A DNA stretch of 64,000 nucleotides. Origin: Streptomyces tendae (GTDB lineage Bacteria; Actinomycetota; Actinomycetes; Streptomycetales; Streptomycetaceae). The notes under the pieces were generated by a model. That model had not been told where the DNA came from, made no database searches, and was given only the letters and a program-made list of their open reading frames with translations. Of this stretch, positions 3,677-61,908 are shown piece after piece (the first letter of the stretch is position 1; each line of letters starts with the position of its first letter). The position numbers and the translations under genes were made by a program. The stretch covers positions 310,001-374,000 of the forward strand of contig NZ_CP043960.1 of NCBI RefSeq assembly GCF_008632955.1, in the 5' to 3' direction.

Positions 3677-3960
3677 ATTCAGAGTGGCCACTGATTGGGT
3701 GACGGGCTGGCGTTCCGCAACGCACGAGTCTCCTGGGCCGTTGAGAGAGGTGTTCGACGTCCCAAGTCATCAGCGCAGGAGCCTCGTTGGTTCCATATCC
3801 TGCCGCTCTCGACCTGCCGCACGCCCTGGTCGAGTGGGTATCCATGCTCATCGGCACCCGTGAGGGTGACCGCCGCTGCAAGCTCCCGCCCCACCAGCGT
3901 CCCCTCGCTGGCCTGGTCCACCTCGGCCAGGCCTCCAAGGCCGATTTCCATGGTCTATAG
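3677..3960 (+). mobile_element. IS5-family remnant (left end and transposase start)
   Basis: The stretch begins with CAGAGTGGCCACTGATTGGG, the left end also seen in the complete copy at 12438-13321. It then encodes [20 protein letters not shown] and [20 protein letters not shown], the first 55 residues of the same transposase, before a stop at 3958. The rest is gone. It belongs to the group represented by the copies at 9123, 12438, 14735 and 33236. Confidence 0.75.
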
Positions 3961-34562: not shown

Positions 34563-34725
34563 GGTCGGGCTGCTCTGAGCAGCCGGCCGCCGCGGAACTC
34601 ACCCTGCGCCGGTCCATCGCCGCAGCGCGCGGCGGTGAACCGGCACCACCCGGCAGTGGCCCTCTGCCGCACGGCCACGTCGTGGGCCGTGCCCGTCCCG
34701 GTACGACACGCCCTCGCCTGCCTGG

Positions 34726-35721
34726 CTACTTGCGCAGGGCCGCGACGTACGTGTGGGCCATGAAGTCGATGACCTTGGTCCGCCGGGCGTCGGCCGCGTC
34801 GTCCCCGTGCAGCATGAGGGTGCCGTGGGCCTCGCCGTCCACCACGACGAACTGCTTCTCCTTCGCTGGGGAGGCCTCGTAGACCTCGCGGAGCTGCTTC
34901 TCGTGTCTGCCCTGCATGTCCTCGTGCGCGACCATGAAGAGGGAGGGTTGCTCGATGTTCTTCACGGCGGAGACGGCGTCACCGTCACAGCGTGCGGGTG
35001 ACGACAGGAGCATCAGCCCGACGACGGGAATGCCGCTCCTGACGCCCTCGACGACGGCGGTGGTCCCGCCGCACGATGCTCCAGCCAGGAACACGTGCCG
35101 GGCGGGTAGGAGCTTGAGCTCGTCGAAGGCCGCCCTCATGTCCAATGGGCTGGAGGTGTCCGCCGCCTCGGACGCCACGTAGCCGCGGAACTCCGGGAGG
35201 ATCACGCGGTATCCGCGCGCGGCCATCTCCTCGGCGAGATCGAGAAAGTTGCATATCTGTCCGCCGTACTGGTGGCCGAAGTACACGACGTTGGTCCCCT
35301 TGCCGAGGATCAGGGTGGAGAGGTGTTTGCCGTCCTTCGTGGTGAGTGTCCTGACACTGTTCCATAAACGCTTGGGCACACACTTGTTCACCAGCTGACC
35401 GGTGGCGGTTCGGGCGGTCAGCCGGGGGTCAGCCGGCTTGTAGGAGGCGGGGCTCTGTGGTGCCATCGGCTCGTCTGCGGGGGGTTTGGCTGGCTTCGAA
35501 GCCGGCTTCGACGGGGCCGCAGCTCCCTGCGTCTGTGGGGAGGCGGGCGGCGGTGTGTGGTCCGAGGCGCAGCCGCCCAGTGCCGCGACGGCGGCGGCCG
35601 CCAGTGCCAGGACACCTGTGTGCCGCACGAATGAGGAGGATGGGGTGGGCAAGGGCGTTCCTGATCGTTCGAGGGTGGTGGGGGTTTGTTTGCGCAGGCC
35701 GACGTGGACGTCCTGGGTCAT
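34726..35721 (-). CDS. Lipoprotein alpha/beta hydrolase (dienelactone-hydrolase-like)
   Basis: The frame of 331 residues probably starts inside it, at a TTG/GTG near residue 24-30. VLALAAAAVAALGGC is a lipoprotein signal with lipobox LGGC. A Pro/Ala-rich linker leads to the hydrolase domain: NVVYFGHQYGGQICNFLDLA, YRVILPEFRGYVASEAADTS, HVFLAGASCGGTTAVVEGVR (nucleophile in G-A-S-C-G), FMVAHEDMQGRHEKQLREVY and VVVDGEAHGTLMLHG with the His. It would be tethered outside the membrane and cleave esters or similar bonds. It is divergent from the two-component system, which may control it. Confidence 0.8.
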   Translation of the reverse strand: MTQDVHVGLRKQTPTTLERSGTPLPTPSSSFVRHTGVLALAAAAVAALGGCASDHTPPPASPQTQGAAAPSKPASKPAKPPADEPMAPQSPASYKPADPRLTARTATGQLVNKCVPKRLWNSVRTLTTKDGKHLSTLILGKGTNVVYFGHQYGGQICNFLDLAEEMAARGYRVILPEFRGYVASEAADTSSPLDMRAAFDELKLLPARHVFLAGASCGGTTAVVEGVRSGIPVVGLMLLSSPARCDGDAVSAVKNIEQPSLFMVAHEDMQGRHEKQLREVYEASPAKEKQFVVVDGEAHGTLMLHGDDAADARRTKVIDFMAHTYVAALRK

Positions 35722-59603: not shown

Positions 59604-59869
59604 TAGGCCCAGACCGTGACATACGAGCCAGCTCCATAGCCCCGAGTGGCTGACGCCTGAAACGGCCCGCTGGCGGTGGCCGCCTGTCATGCCCTTGGGC
59701 CCGGCGTGGGCCGGGGAGGCTGGTGGCCCGTCCGGGCGGCGTGCGAAGGGTCCGGACGGGCTCCGCCTCGTATGGTGCCGGTCCAGTCAAGAGCGGCGGG
59801 CGCGACACGCTGCACGGCCGACGTACTCGCAGATGTCCCGCCACACCGTTCCCACTCGTTGACGTTGAC

Positions 59870-60079
59870 GGGACCATTTCTGCAGGTGTGGGAGTCCCGC
59901 CGTTGTCGGGCTAGCCCGACAACGGCGGGAGGGGCCATCCCTGCGGGTGCGGGGAGTAGTTCGCGCACGGCGACAAGCTCCGCGCGGTCACGGGACCATC
60001 CCCGCGGGTGCGGGGAGCAGGGAATCCCGCCAACGAGGCATCCGTCCCGGTCGGGGACCATCCCAGCCCGGCAGGATGG
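59870..60079 (-). CRISPR. Short orphan type I-E CRISPR array (3 repeats plus a half repeat)
   Basis: Repeats begin at 59870, 59931, 59992 and 60054, a period of 61, 61 and 62 bases. The best repeat (59992-60020, 29 bases) starts GGGACCATCCCCGC and ends GGGTGCGGGGAGCAG, the complement of the Streptomyces type I-E repeat, so the array would be transcribed leftward. The 59931 copy differs at 3 positions, the 59870 copy at many, and the 60054 copy keeps only its first half. Spacers are 32-33 bases. No cas gene is in the window, so any activity needs a distant system. Confidence 0.85.
59895..59930. repeat. 36-bp perfect palindrome filling the first CRISPR spacer
   Basis: Arms of 16 bases (TCCCGCCG then TTGTCGGG) meet at a central CTAG and are perfectly self-complementary. 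It coincides with spacer 1 and the last bases of the degenerate repeat. As RNA it would be a 16-bp hairpin with loop CUAG, so it could also act as a terminator. Confidence 0.9.
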
Positions 60080-60131: not shown

Positions 60132-60905
60132 TCAGCGGAGGGTGGTGGGGTCAAGGATCTGGTCGGGGGGCGGCGGGGTGGTGTCGACGGGTTTGTTGTG
60201 GTCGGTGAAAGTGAGGTCGAGGGGGTCGTTGCCGCCTGTGATCGTGGCTCTCAGGAGGTAGGGCTTGCCCTCCTTGGCGATGTAGACGGTCGTGGTGTCG
60301 GTCGGAGTCCTTTCCGTGAGTACGGCGGTTGGCCGCCCATCCACGGTCGCATCGTTTTCACGGGTTGCGTTCCCGTCAGGTTCGGCGCTGAGTATTTCAA
60401 GCACGGAGTCGAAGCCGTCGCAGAAGCTCCCCAAAGTCTTCGCCATCAGTGTGGGCGGCTTGATCCAGCGGTCCGTGAAGTGGCCGACCATCTTCTCAGC
60501 CTGCTCGACTGTCATCCCGCGGTTGAAGGTTGCCCGCCAGTAGTCCTCCCCGGCTTTGGCGTAGACGAGGGAACCCTTTTTGATGATGTGCAGGGTGCCC
60601 AGGGAGTTGTCCACCGTGCCGTTGCAGGAGCCGCGGACATCGATGGCCAGGTCGATCTCGACCTGCTGTCCGTTGCTGCTGACTTTGCCAGTGAGGCGCA
60701 TGCTCGTGGTGTTTCTGAAGGATTCCCGGGCCTGCTTGTCGATCTGCTCGGACGCCATGGTGTCGAAGGGGTGCTTCGCCTTGGCGGCCGGCTCGGTGTT
60801 GTTCGCGCCAGGCTCGGAACTGTCGGTACCGCAGCCGGTGATGAGCGCTGCGGTAGTGGTACACAGCAAGGCAGTGATGACGCGGCTGGTGGTGTAGTGC
60901 TTCAC
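60132..60905 (-). CDS. Lipoprotein (LppX/LprAFG-like)
   Basis: GTG 60905 behind AAGGAC. VITALLCTTTAALITGC is a lipoprotein signal with lipobox LITGC. The mature domain (about 235 residues) has ARESFRNTTSMRLTGKVSSN, IDLAIDVRGSCNGTVDNSLG, GEDYWRATFNRGMTVEQAEK and DTTTVYIAKEGKPYLLRATI, the half-barrel pattern of the lipid-binding LppX/LprG-type fold. Anchored outside the membrane; ligand unknown. Single gene, followed by the CRISPR remnant. Confidence 0.8.
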   Translation of the reverse strand: MKHYTTSRVITALLCTTTAALITGCGTDSSEPGANNTEPAAKAKHPFDTMASEQIDKQARESFRNTTSMRLTGKVSSNGQQVEIDLAIDVRGSCNGTVDNSLGTLHIIKKGSLVYAKAGEDYWRATFNRGMTVEQAEKMVGHFTDRWIKPPTLMAKTLGSFCDGFDSVLEILSAEPDGNATRENDATVDGRPTAVLTERTPTDTTTVYIAKEGKPYLLRATITGGNDPLDLTFTDHNKPVDTTPPPPDQILDPTTLR

Positions 60906-61031
60906 GTGCGGATGTCCTTCCCCGGTTGAACCTCGCTGACTGTATGCCGTCAAGGCGTGACACGTGCAGTGGGAGCAGCCGATTCTGCAAGTACTCCTGC
61001 CGAGCGACTTCTCGTTGCGGGACAAGGACTA

Positions 61032-61902
61032 AAGGGTGTTGCACAAGACTGTGAACTGGGCATCTCCGGTGTATGGCTGGGGTGTTGAGGGCTGAACGCG
61101 TGTGGGTGGAGACGTTCACGGGGCTGCGGTTGGAGCAGTTCGAGCGGCTGCTGAAGGCGGTCCGTGACCGCGGTGGCAACGGGACTCTGCGGGGCCGACC
61201 GTGGTGTCTTCCGCTGGCCGAACGGGTCTTGGTGGTGGCCGTGTACTACCGCACGAATCTGACCATGCGGCAGCTCGGGCCGCTGTTCGGGATCTCGTCG
61301 TCGACGGTGTGCCGGGTGATCCAGCGGCTCGGTCCGCTGCTCGCACTGGAGCCCGTCTCCCGACCAGGCGATGCGGCCGACCGGTTGTGGATCGTGGACG
61401 GCACCCTCATCCCGGTCCGCGACCGGAAGGTCGGCTCCTCGTCACGCAACTACCGGTTCTCGGCAAACGTGCAGGTCATCGTGGGCGCCCACACCCGCCT
61501 GGTCATCGCCGCGGCCCGGCCGGTGCCGGGCACCACCGCGGACGCGCATGCCTGGCGTGCCTCCGGCCTGGCCGGGCACTGCCAGGACGTGACCGTCCTG
61601 GCGGACGGCGCCTACCTCAACTGCGGCATGGTCACCCCACACCGCAAACGCCCCCGACGCGAGCTGCTGCCGGGCGAGGAAGACGACAACGCGGCGCACC
61701 GCAAGGTCCGTGCAAGGGTGGAGCATGTGATCGGCCGGATGAAGAACTACAAGATCCTCCGCGACTGCCGGCAACACGGCGACGGCCTCCACCACGCCGT
61801 CCAGGCCGTTGCCCACATGCACAACCTCGCCCTCGCATCATGACCAGAGGACCGTCTCCACCCGCCCTGGCCTGCCCAAACACAGTCTTGTGCAACACCC
61901 TT
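61032..61902 (+). mobile_element. IS5-family (HARBI1-like) insertion sequence, complete
   Basis: Ends AAGGGTGTTGCACAAGACTG and its inverse, with TA at 61030-61031 and 61903-61904. At 0.87 kb with the transposase starting 41 bases from the left end, it is the compact version of the element at 4744-8360. Confidence 0.9.
61073..61843 (+). CDS. IS5-family transposase, intact
   Basis: A 256-residue protein. FTGLRLEQFERLLKAVRDRG, YYRTNLTMRQLGPLFGISSS (helix-turn-helix), LWIVDGTLIPVRDRKVGSSS (Asp), VTVLADGAYLNCGMVTPHRK (Asp) and RARVEHVIGRMKNYKILRDC (Glu). No interruption; a likely active copy. Confidence 0.88.
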   Translation: MAGVLRAERVWVETFTGLRLEQFERLLKAVRDRGGNGTLRGRPWCLPLAERVLVVAVYYRTNLTMRQLGPLFGISSSTVCRVIQRLGPLLALEPVSRPGDAADRLWIVDGTLIPVRDRKVGSSSRNYRFSANVQVIVGAHTRLVIAAARPVPGTTADAHAWRASGLAGHCQDVTVLADGAYLNCGMVTPHRKRPRRELLPGEEDDNAAHRKVRARVEHVIGRMKNYKILRDCRQHGDGLHHAVQAVAHMHNLALAS

Positions 61903-61908
61903 TAGGGG

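Follow-up and report, generated by a model that had tools for sequence, protein, structure and literature searches.

The 64-kb window (the whole stretch of DNA analysed) belongs to C2, a 408,250-bp contig of a 7.34-Mb, 99.99% complete Streptomyces tendae genome. It contains a short CRISPR array whose repeats start at 59870, 59931 and 59992, i.e., at spacings of 61 and 61 bp, followed by a half repeat at 60054, in agreement with the 61-base period and the decayed type I-E array described in an earlier note on this DNA (Table 1). In crRNA orientation, which is that of the minus strand, repeats 3, 2 and 1 read CTGCTCCCCGCACCCGCGGGGATGGTCCC, CTACTCCCCGCACCCGCAGGGATGGCCCC and GGGACTCCCACACCTGCAGAAATGGTCCC, respectively. 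The assignment to type I-E is based on 28–29-nt repeats with a CTCCCCGC...GCGGGGATG stem, matching those of cas-associated I-E arrays, and on ~32-nt spacers at a 61-nt period. Repeat 3 is, base for base, the consensus of Streptomyces plasmid arrays with type I-E cas genes annotated in their records (loci L196 and L197), and blastn finds similar DNA, mostly these CRISPR repeats, on 92 Streptomyces plasmid records.

Table 1. Features of the array and its surroundings, in window coordinates.
Feature	Start	End	Strand	Description
Duplicated flank	59515	59877	+	93% over the scored stretch against C2:399.6–400.0 kb; homology stops 8 bp into repeat 1 (GGGACCAT)
Repeat 1	59870	59898	-	Leader-distal terminal type I-E repeat, decayed; 10/29 positions unlike repeat 3
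Perfect palindrome	59895	59930		36 bp, strandless; arms TCCCGCCGTTGTCGGGCT / AGCCCGACAACGGCGGGA
Spacer 1	59899	59930	-	32 nt, palindromic
Repeat 2	59931	59959	-	29 nt
Spacer 2	59960	59991	-	32 nt; protospacer searches gave nothing convincing
Repeat 3	59992	60020	-	29 nt, CTGCTCCCCGCACCCGCGGGGATGGTCCC
Spacer 3	60021	60053	-	33 nt; protospacer searches gave nothing convincing
Half repeat 4	60054	60067	-	GGGACCATCCCAGC, 14 bp, broken
Lipoprotein gene	60132	60905	-	3' end faces the array; LppX_LprAFG match weak, below cut-off

The duplicate of the left flank lies 30 kb away and comprises the 3' part of a gene and its downstream region. Since the homology stops 8 bp into repeat 1, a rearrangement broke within the repeat at this point. 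On the other side of the lipoprotein gene, an insertion sequence occupies 61029–61905 of the window, with a DDE transposase (61073–61843) and 25-bp perfect terminal inverted repeats.

Profile searches of the whole 7.34-Mb genome detected neither Cas1 (PF01867) nor Cse1 (PF09481), confirming for these two proteins the earlier observation that the array lacks cas genes. No intact leader-side repeat is present, as repeat 4 breaks off after ~11–14 bp, and the predicted folds show a Cas6e-type stem that is kept in repeat 3 and lost in repeat 1. An Rfam scan of the window returned no match. With no leader, breakage or decay in its outer repeats and neither Cas1 nor Cse1 in the genome, the array is a type I-E relic or orphan rather than a CRISPR-Cas system. 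Three spacers are left; of the repeats, two are sound, the terminal one is decayed and one is reduced to a half. Relic arrays of this kind are probably ordinary. The I-E arrays of Streptomyces plasmids (e.g., pLBRS, NZ_CP059899; S. anulatus, NZ_CP108693) have the 29-nt sequence of repeat 3 as their repeat, along with spacers of 32 nt and the 61-bp period, whereas the relic lacks Cas1/Cse1 and an intact leader-side repeat, retains only two sound repeats and carries one fully palindromic spacer. It likewise resembles solitary repeat units and RNA anti-CRISPRs (PMC10651486) in having CRISPR repeats away from cas genes, yet it is a three-spacer array remnant on a bacterial replicon and not a phage unit.

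Other CRISPR traces were also observed. Near its right end, C2 has a further decayed I-E-like array with repeats of a different type (GGAACATCCCCGCGTCGGCGGGGAGGAC; C2:407045–407219; L162 11046–11220), and the chromosome (C1) holds a lone intact I-E repeat at C1:6441710 (L163 ~3708–3737), with a further perfect 36-bp palindrome (GGCCGTGTCCGGTGTCGTACGACACCGGACACGGCC) at a distance of 340 bp. In Streptomyces phage Piccadilly (OL455886, ~34590–34905; L188 ~1500–1815), the gap separating genes 53 and 54 contains about six type I-E-like repeats. This cluster, also matched by eleven further records of the Piccadilly phage group, is a candidate RNA anti-CRISPR or viral mini-array.

The palindrome of the S. 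tendae relic is built of two 18-bp arms (59895–59912 and 59913–59930) with 0 nt between them, 100% complementary and centred on CTAG, which confirms the perfect 36-bp palindrome of the earlier note. The note had also placed it exactly in a spacer position, which is true of its right edge, shared with spacer 1, but not of its left edge, which enters repeat 1 by 4 bp. The last 4 bp of this repeat (TCCC on the + strand) are thus part of the palindrome, in line with the note's remark that the palindrome takes over the end of repeat 1. Counted inside spacer 1 alone, the palindrome measures 14+14 bp; with the bases of repeat 1 it measures 18+18 bp. Two findings that, according to the earlier note, would undermine this picture, a palindrome recurring elsewhere in the genome or a first repeat that is not a repeat, were looked for: the palindrome is unique, and repeat 1 stands in the 61-bp phase with 19/29 positions identical to repeat 3.

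Could the palindrome be functional today? A self-complementary crRNA or mini-array RNA with a working or regulatory role might draw on the Cas6e-type stem that repeat 3 is still predicted to form; however, Cas1 and Cse1 are missing from the genome, the stem of repeat 1 is destroyed, the leader-side repeat is not intact and the guide would, by prediction, be shut in a 16-bp hairpin. We regard such an RNA as exceedingly improbable, and the concern that spacer 1 would yield a self-complementary crRNA is moot where Cas1/Cse1 are absent and the Cas6e stem of repeat 1 is broken. Apparently, the array has no activity and the palindrome is a curiosity in a dead array.

The palindrome might instead serve now as a bidirectional terminator or RNA-stabilising hairpin, by accident or by selection, with selection keeping its arms perfect. 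The predicted RNA hairpin is very stable on both strands (−34.3 kcal/mol, z −7.5), the site lies between converging genes (on the + strand a gene remnant that ends near 59.6 kb, on the − strand the lipoprotein gene, whose 3' end is at 60132), and the genome has other 36-bp loopless palindromes. Like bidirectional intrinsic terminators, it forms a GC-rich perfect hairpin between converging genes; unlike them, it has no U-tract flanking the hairpin on either strand and sits in CRISPR phase. A terminator scan gave no call at the palindrome, no second copy that would mark it as a repeated terminator or protein-binding site exists in its own genome, no homologous palindrome was found at another locus there or in 392 other Streptomyces genomes, and the flank has an inverted repeat of its own at ~59722–59766 (seen by eye). 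Maintenance as a terminator is therefore unlikely in our view, and it can overlap with either origin of the palindrome considered below, capture or template switching.

To place spacer 1 among its kind, we compared it with 994 deduplicated I-E spacers from Streptomyces and related genome regions and plasmids. In this set, perfect arms are at most 9 bp long with loops of ≤8 nt and 11 bp with loops of ≤14 nt (the latter found with a 9-nt loop), and shuffled controls (n = 19,880 spacers) reach 10 bp, as against the 14-bp arm and loop of 0 in spacer 1, which bears out the earlier judgement that such a spacer is unexpected from ordinary acquisition. Arms of ≥8 bp occur in 13/994 natural spacers and in ~0.4% of shuffles; one hairpin-like natural example, a 32-nt spacer of a cas-associated array, reads CGCCTCCCGCC-9 nt-GGCGGGAGGCG. 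For the genome itself, a scan covering C2 completely and a 440-kb sample of C1 revealed 5 loopless palindromes with arms of ≥16 bp in ~0.85 Mb (~6 per Mb), of which three are in the 440 kb of C1 and one, besides the array palindrome, is on C2 (408 kb). The size of the palindrome is thus ordinary for its own genome; unusual are its in-phase position in an array and its reach into repeat 1. Four of the seven loopless palindromes in the fetched DNA lie near CRISPR repeats, an apparent bias that, by our estimate, is not significant once loci picked for it are removed.

The abundance of loopless palindromes in the genome, the canonical length of spacer 1 and the mild over-representation of hairpin spacers among natural spacers would all accommodate direct capture, in which a perfect phage or plasmid palindrome (a terminator or operator) supplied Cas1-Cas2 with a 32-nt protospacer and the 4-bp extension arose by coincidence or drift. 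No protospacer of spacer 1 was found in phage collections, plasmid collections or IMG/VR, although absence is not proof, and spacers 2 and 3 gave none above chance in the same phage, plasmid and IMG/VR searches; the searches of phage and plasmid sequences proposed in the earlier note, run with the arms and with spacers 2–3, thus yielded no convincing protospacer. Across the 1.07 Mb of viral loci inspected, arms of ≥13 bp do not occur in any loopless palindrome. The best near-match from a virus, L274, agrees at 28/32 positions; it was rejected because 16 bases had been set in advance by the search pattern and because the site is part of the coding sequence of a gene in a Caulobacter-like phage. 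One viral hairpin with the same arms is a coding, chance match, and the 15-bp arm gave at least 120 matches in IMG/VR, which is chance level. Among all GTDB contigs, the core occurs in five Bacteroidales contigs, one of which (L158) was inspected and proved to be unrelated, AT-rich context. As capture also requires the extension into repeat 1 to be a coincidence, we consider it a possible but rather doubtful origin.

A separate palindromic element, such as a ParB- or regulator-binding site or a mobile-element end, might also have been inserted or recombined into the array. In two other Streptomyces loci, long perfect palindromes built on TGTTGTCCGCGGACAACA (L175 1074–1145, 72 bp; L177 10573–10600, 28 bp) are located at the leader-distal end of an I-E array or close to it, and the array palindrome likewise contains GTTGTC...GACAAC. 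The 18-bp core of these palindromes, of which there are many further copies in the vicinity, may represent a parS-like site of a plasmid. A parS reading of the array palindrome is not backed by its own genome, however: GTTGTC-N(0–14)-GACAAC is present at three places only and the exact palindrome site and its arm once each, unlike a repeated binding site. Furthermore, the inner 10 bp differ from those of L175 and L177, and an insertion would break the 61-bp period. Such an element is very unlikely, and insertion of a terminator, one of three origins put forward in the earlier note, is unlikely as well because the period is kept. On the chromosome near its contig end (C1 ~6.881 Mb), two GTTTCACGTGAAAC sites, which we take to be chromosomal parS, lie within 36- and 34-bp perfect palindromes (L238 948–983 and 992–1025).

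Of the other two origins in that note, capture would be a possible first step whose source was not found, and the best fit is inverted duplication inside the spacer, understood as a template-switch correction. In crRNA orientation, the spacer-facing end of repeat 1 is GGGACTCCC, as compared with CTGCTCCCC in repeat 3 and CTACTCCCC in repeat 2; CT(G/A)CTC has become GGGACT, a cluster of transversions with an indel-like shift that completes the palindrome. The remaining five changes of repeat 1 (positions 9, 14, 17, 19 and 20) are all transitions, G-to-A or C-to-T. Each of the four spacer-facing positions is altered in just 6–10% of 81 comparison terminal repeats. The unchanged 61-bp period means that existing sequence was rewritten and nothing was added. 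Type I-E spacer acquisition duplicates a repeat, so repeats 1 and 2 were once identical. They are 67% alike today and yet no pair of the palindrome is broken, which speaks for arms that were corrected recently or repeatedly.

These features suggest that template switching (quasipalindrome correction) perfected the spacer 1 palindrome in place, an explanation to which we give about an even chance. Under it, spacer 1, the furthest from the expected leader, would at first have been a normal 32-nt spacer that had some inverted symmetry, as is seen in hairpin-derived spacers. During replication, the nascent strand would have folded back, copied one arm and rewritten the other; copying would have perfected the palindrome and then run 3–4 bases into the neighbouring repeat 1, so that the same template switch overwrote the spacer-facing end of that repeat. 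Natural hairpin spacers able to seed template switching do exist (the 13 with arms of ≥8 bp described above), and perfect loopless palindromes with a short palindromic core nested in them, in related DNA (L175 and L177) and on the own chromosome (L238) also count in its favour. In E. coli, it is established that template switching at quasipalindromes turns them perfect (PMC7202029), and hairpins are inferred to arise and be maintained by this process during evolution (PMC8794818). With the mutations described in these studies the present case shares a perfect inverted repeat and clustered changes templated by the other arm, whereas it concerns one locus at a CRISPR spacer-repeat junction, read without an ancestral sequence. 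We infer the imperfect ancestor, the template switch and the lack of function today. At the end of repeat 1, the clustered changes fit a template switch. No imperfect ancestral or sister version of spacer 1 was found; the search of related strains suggested in the earlier note, extended to 392 other Streptomyces genomes, was negative for the 28-bp core at ≤3 mismatches. Against template switching, the match of TCCC to the far end of the spacer could be chance, at ~1/64 to 1/256 if the bases drifted. An inter-repeat deletion could also have placed a younger spacer beside an older terminal repeat, which would weaken the argument from unbroken pairs despite the divergence of repeats 1 and 2.

We found no mention of a "palindromic spacer" in connection with CRISPR among 5.39 million open-access papers, which is weak evidence of novelty. 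Tentatively, and with clear doubt, we suggest that spacers with inverted symmetry are hot spots of template switching, which would convert them into perfect palindromes that invade the neighbouring repeat, an unrecorded route of array decay by which a spacer and a repeat are lost, the former through a self-blocked guide and the latter through a broken Cas6 site. If the template-switch explanation is true, spacers derived from hairpins would be subject to a mutational path of their own, by which a spacer and its repeat are inactivated jointly, and this path is testable in any large strain-level collection of CRISPR arrays.
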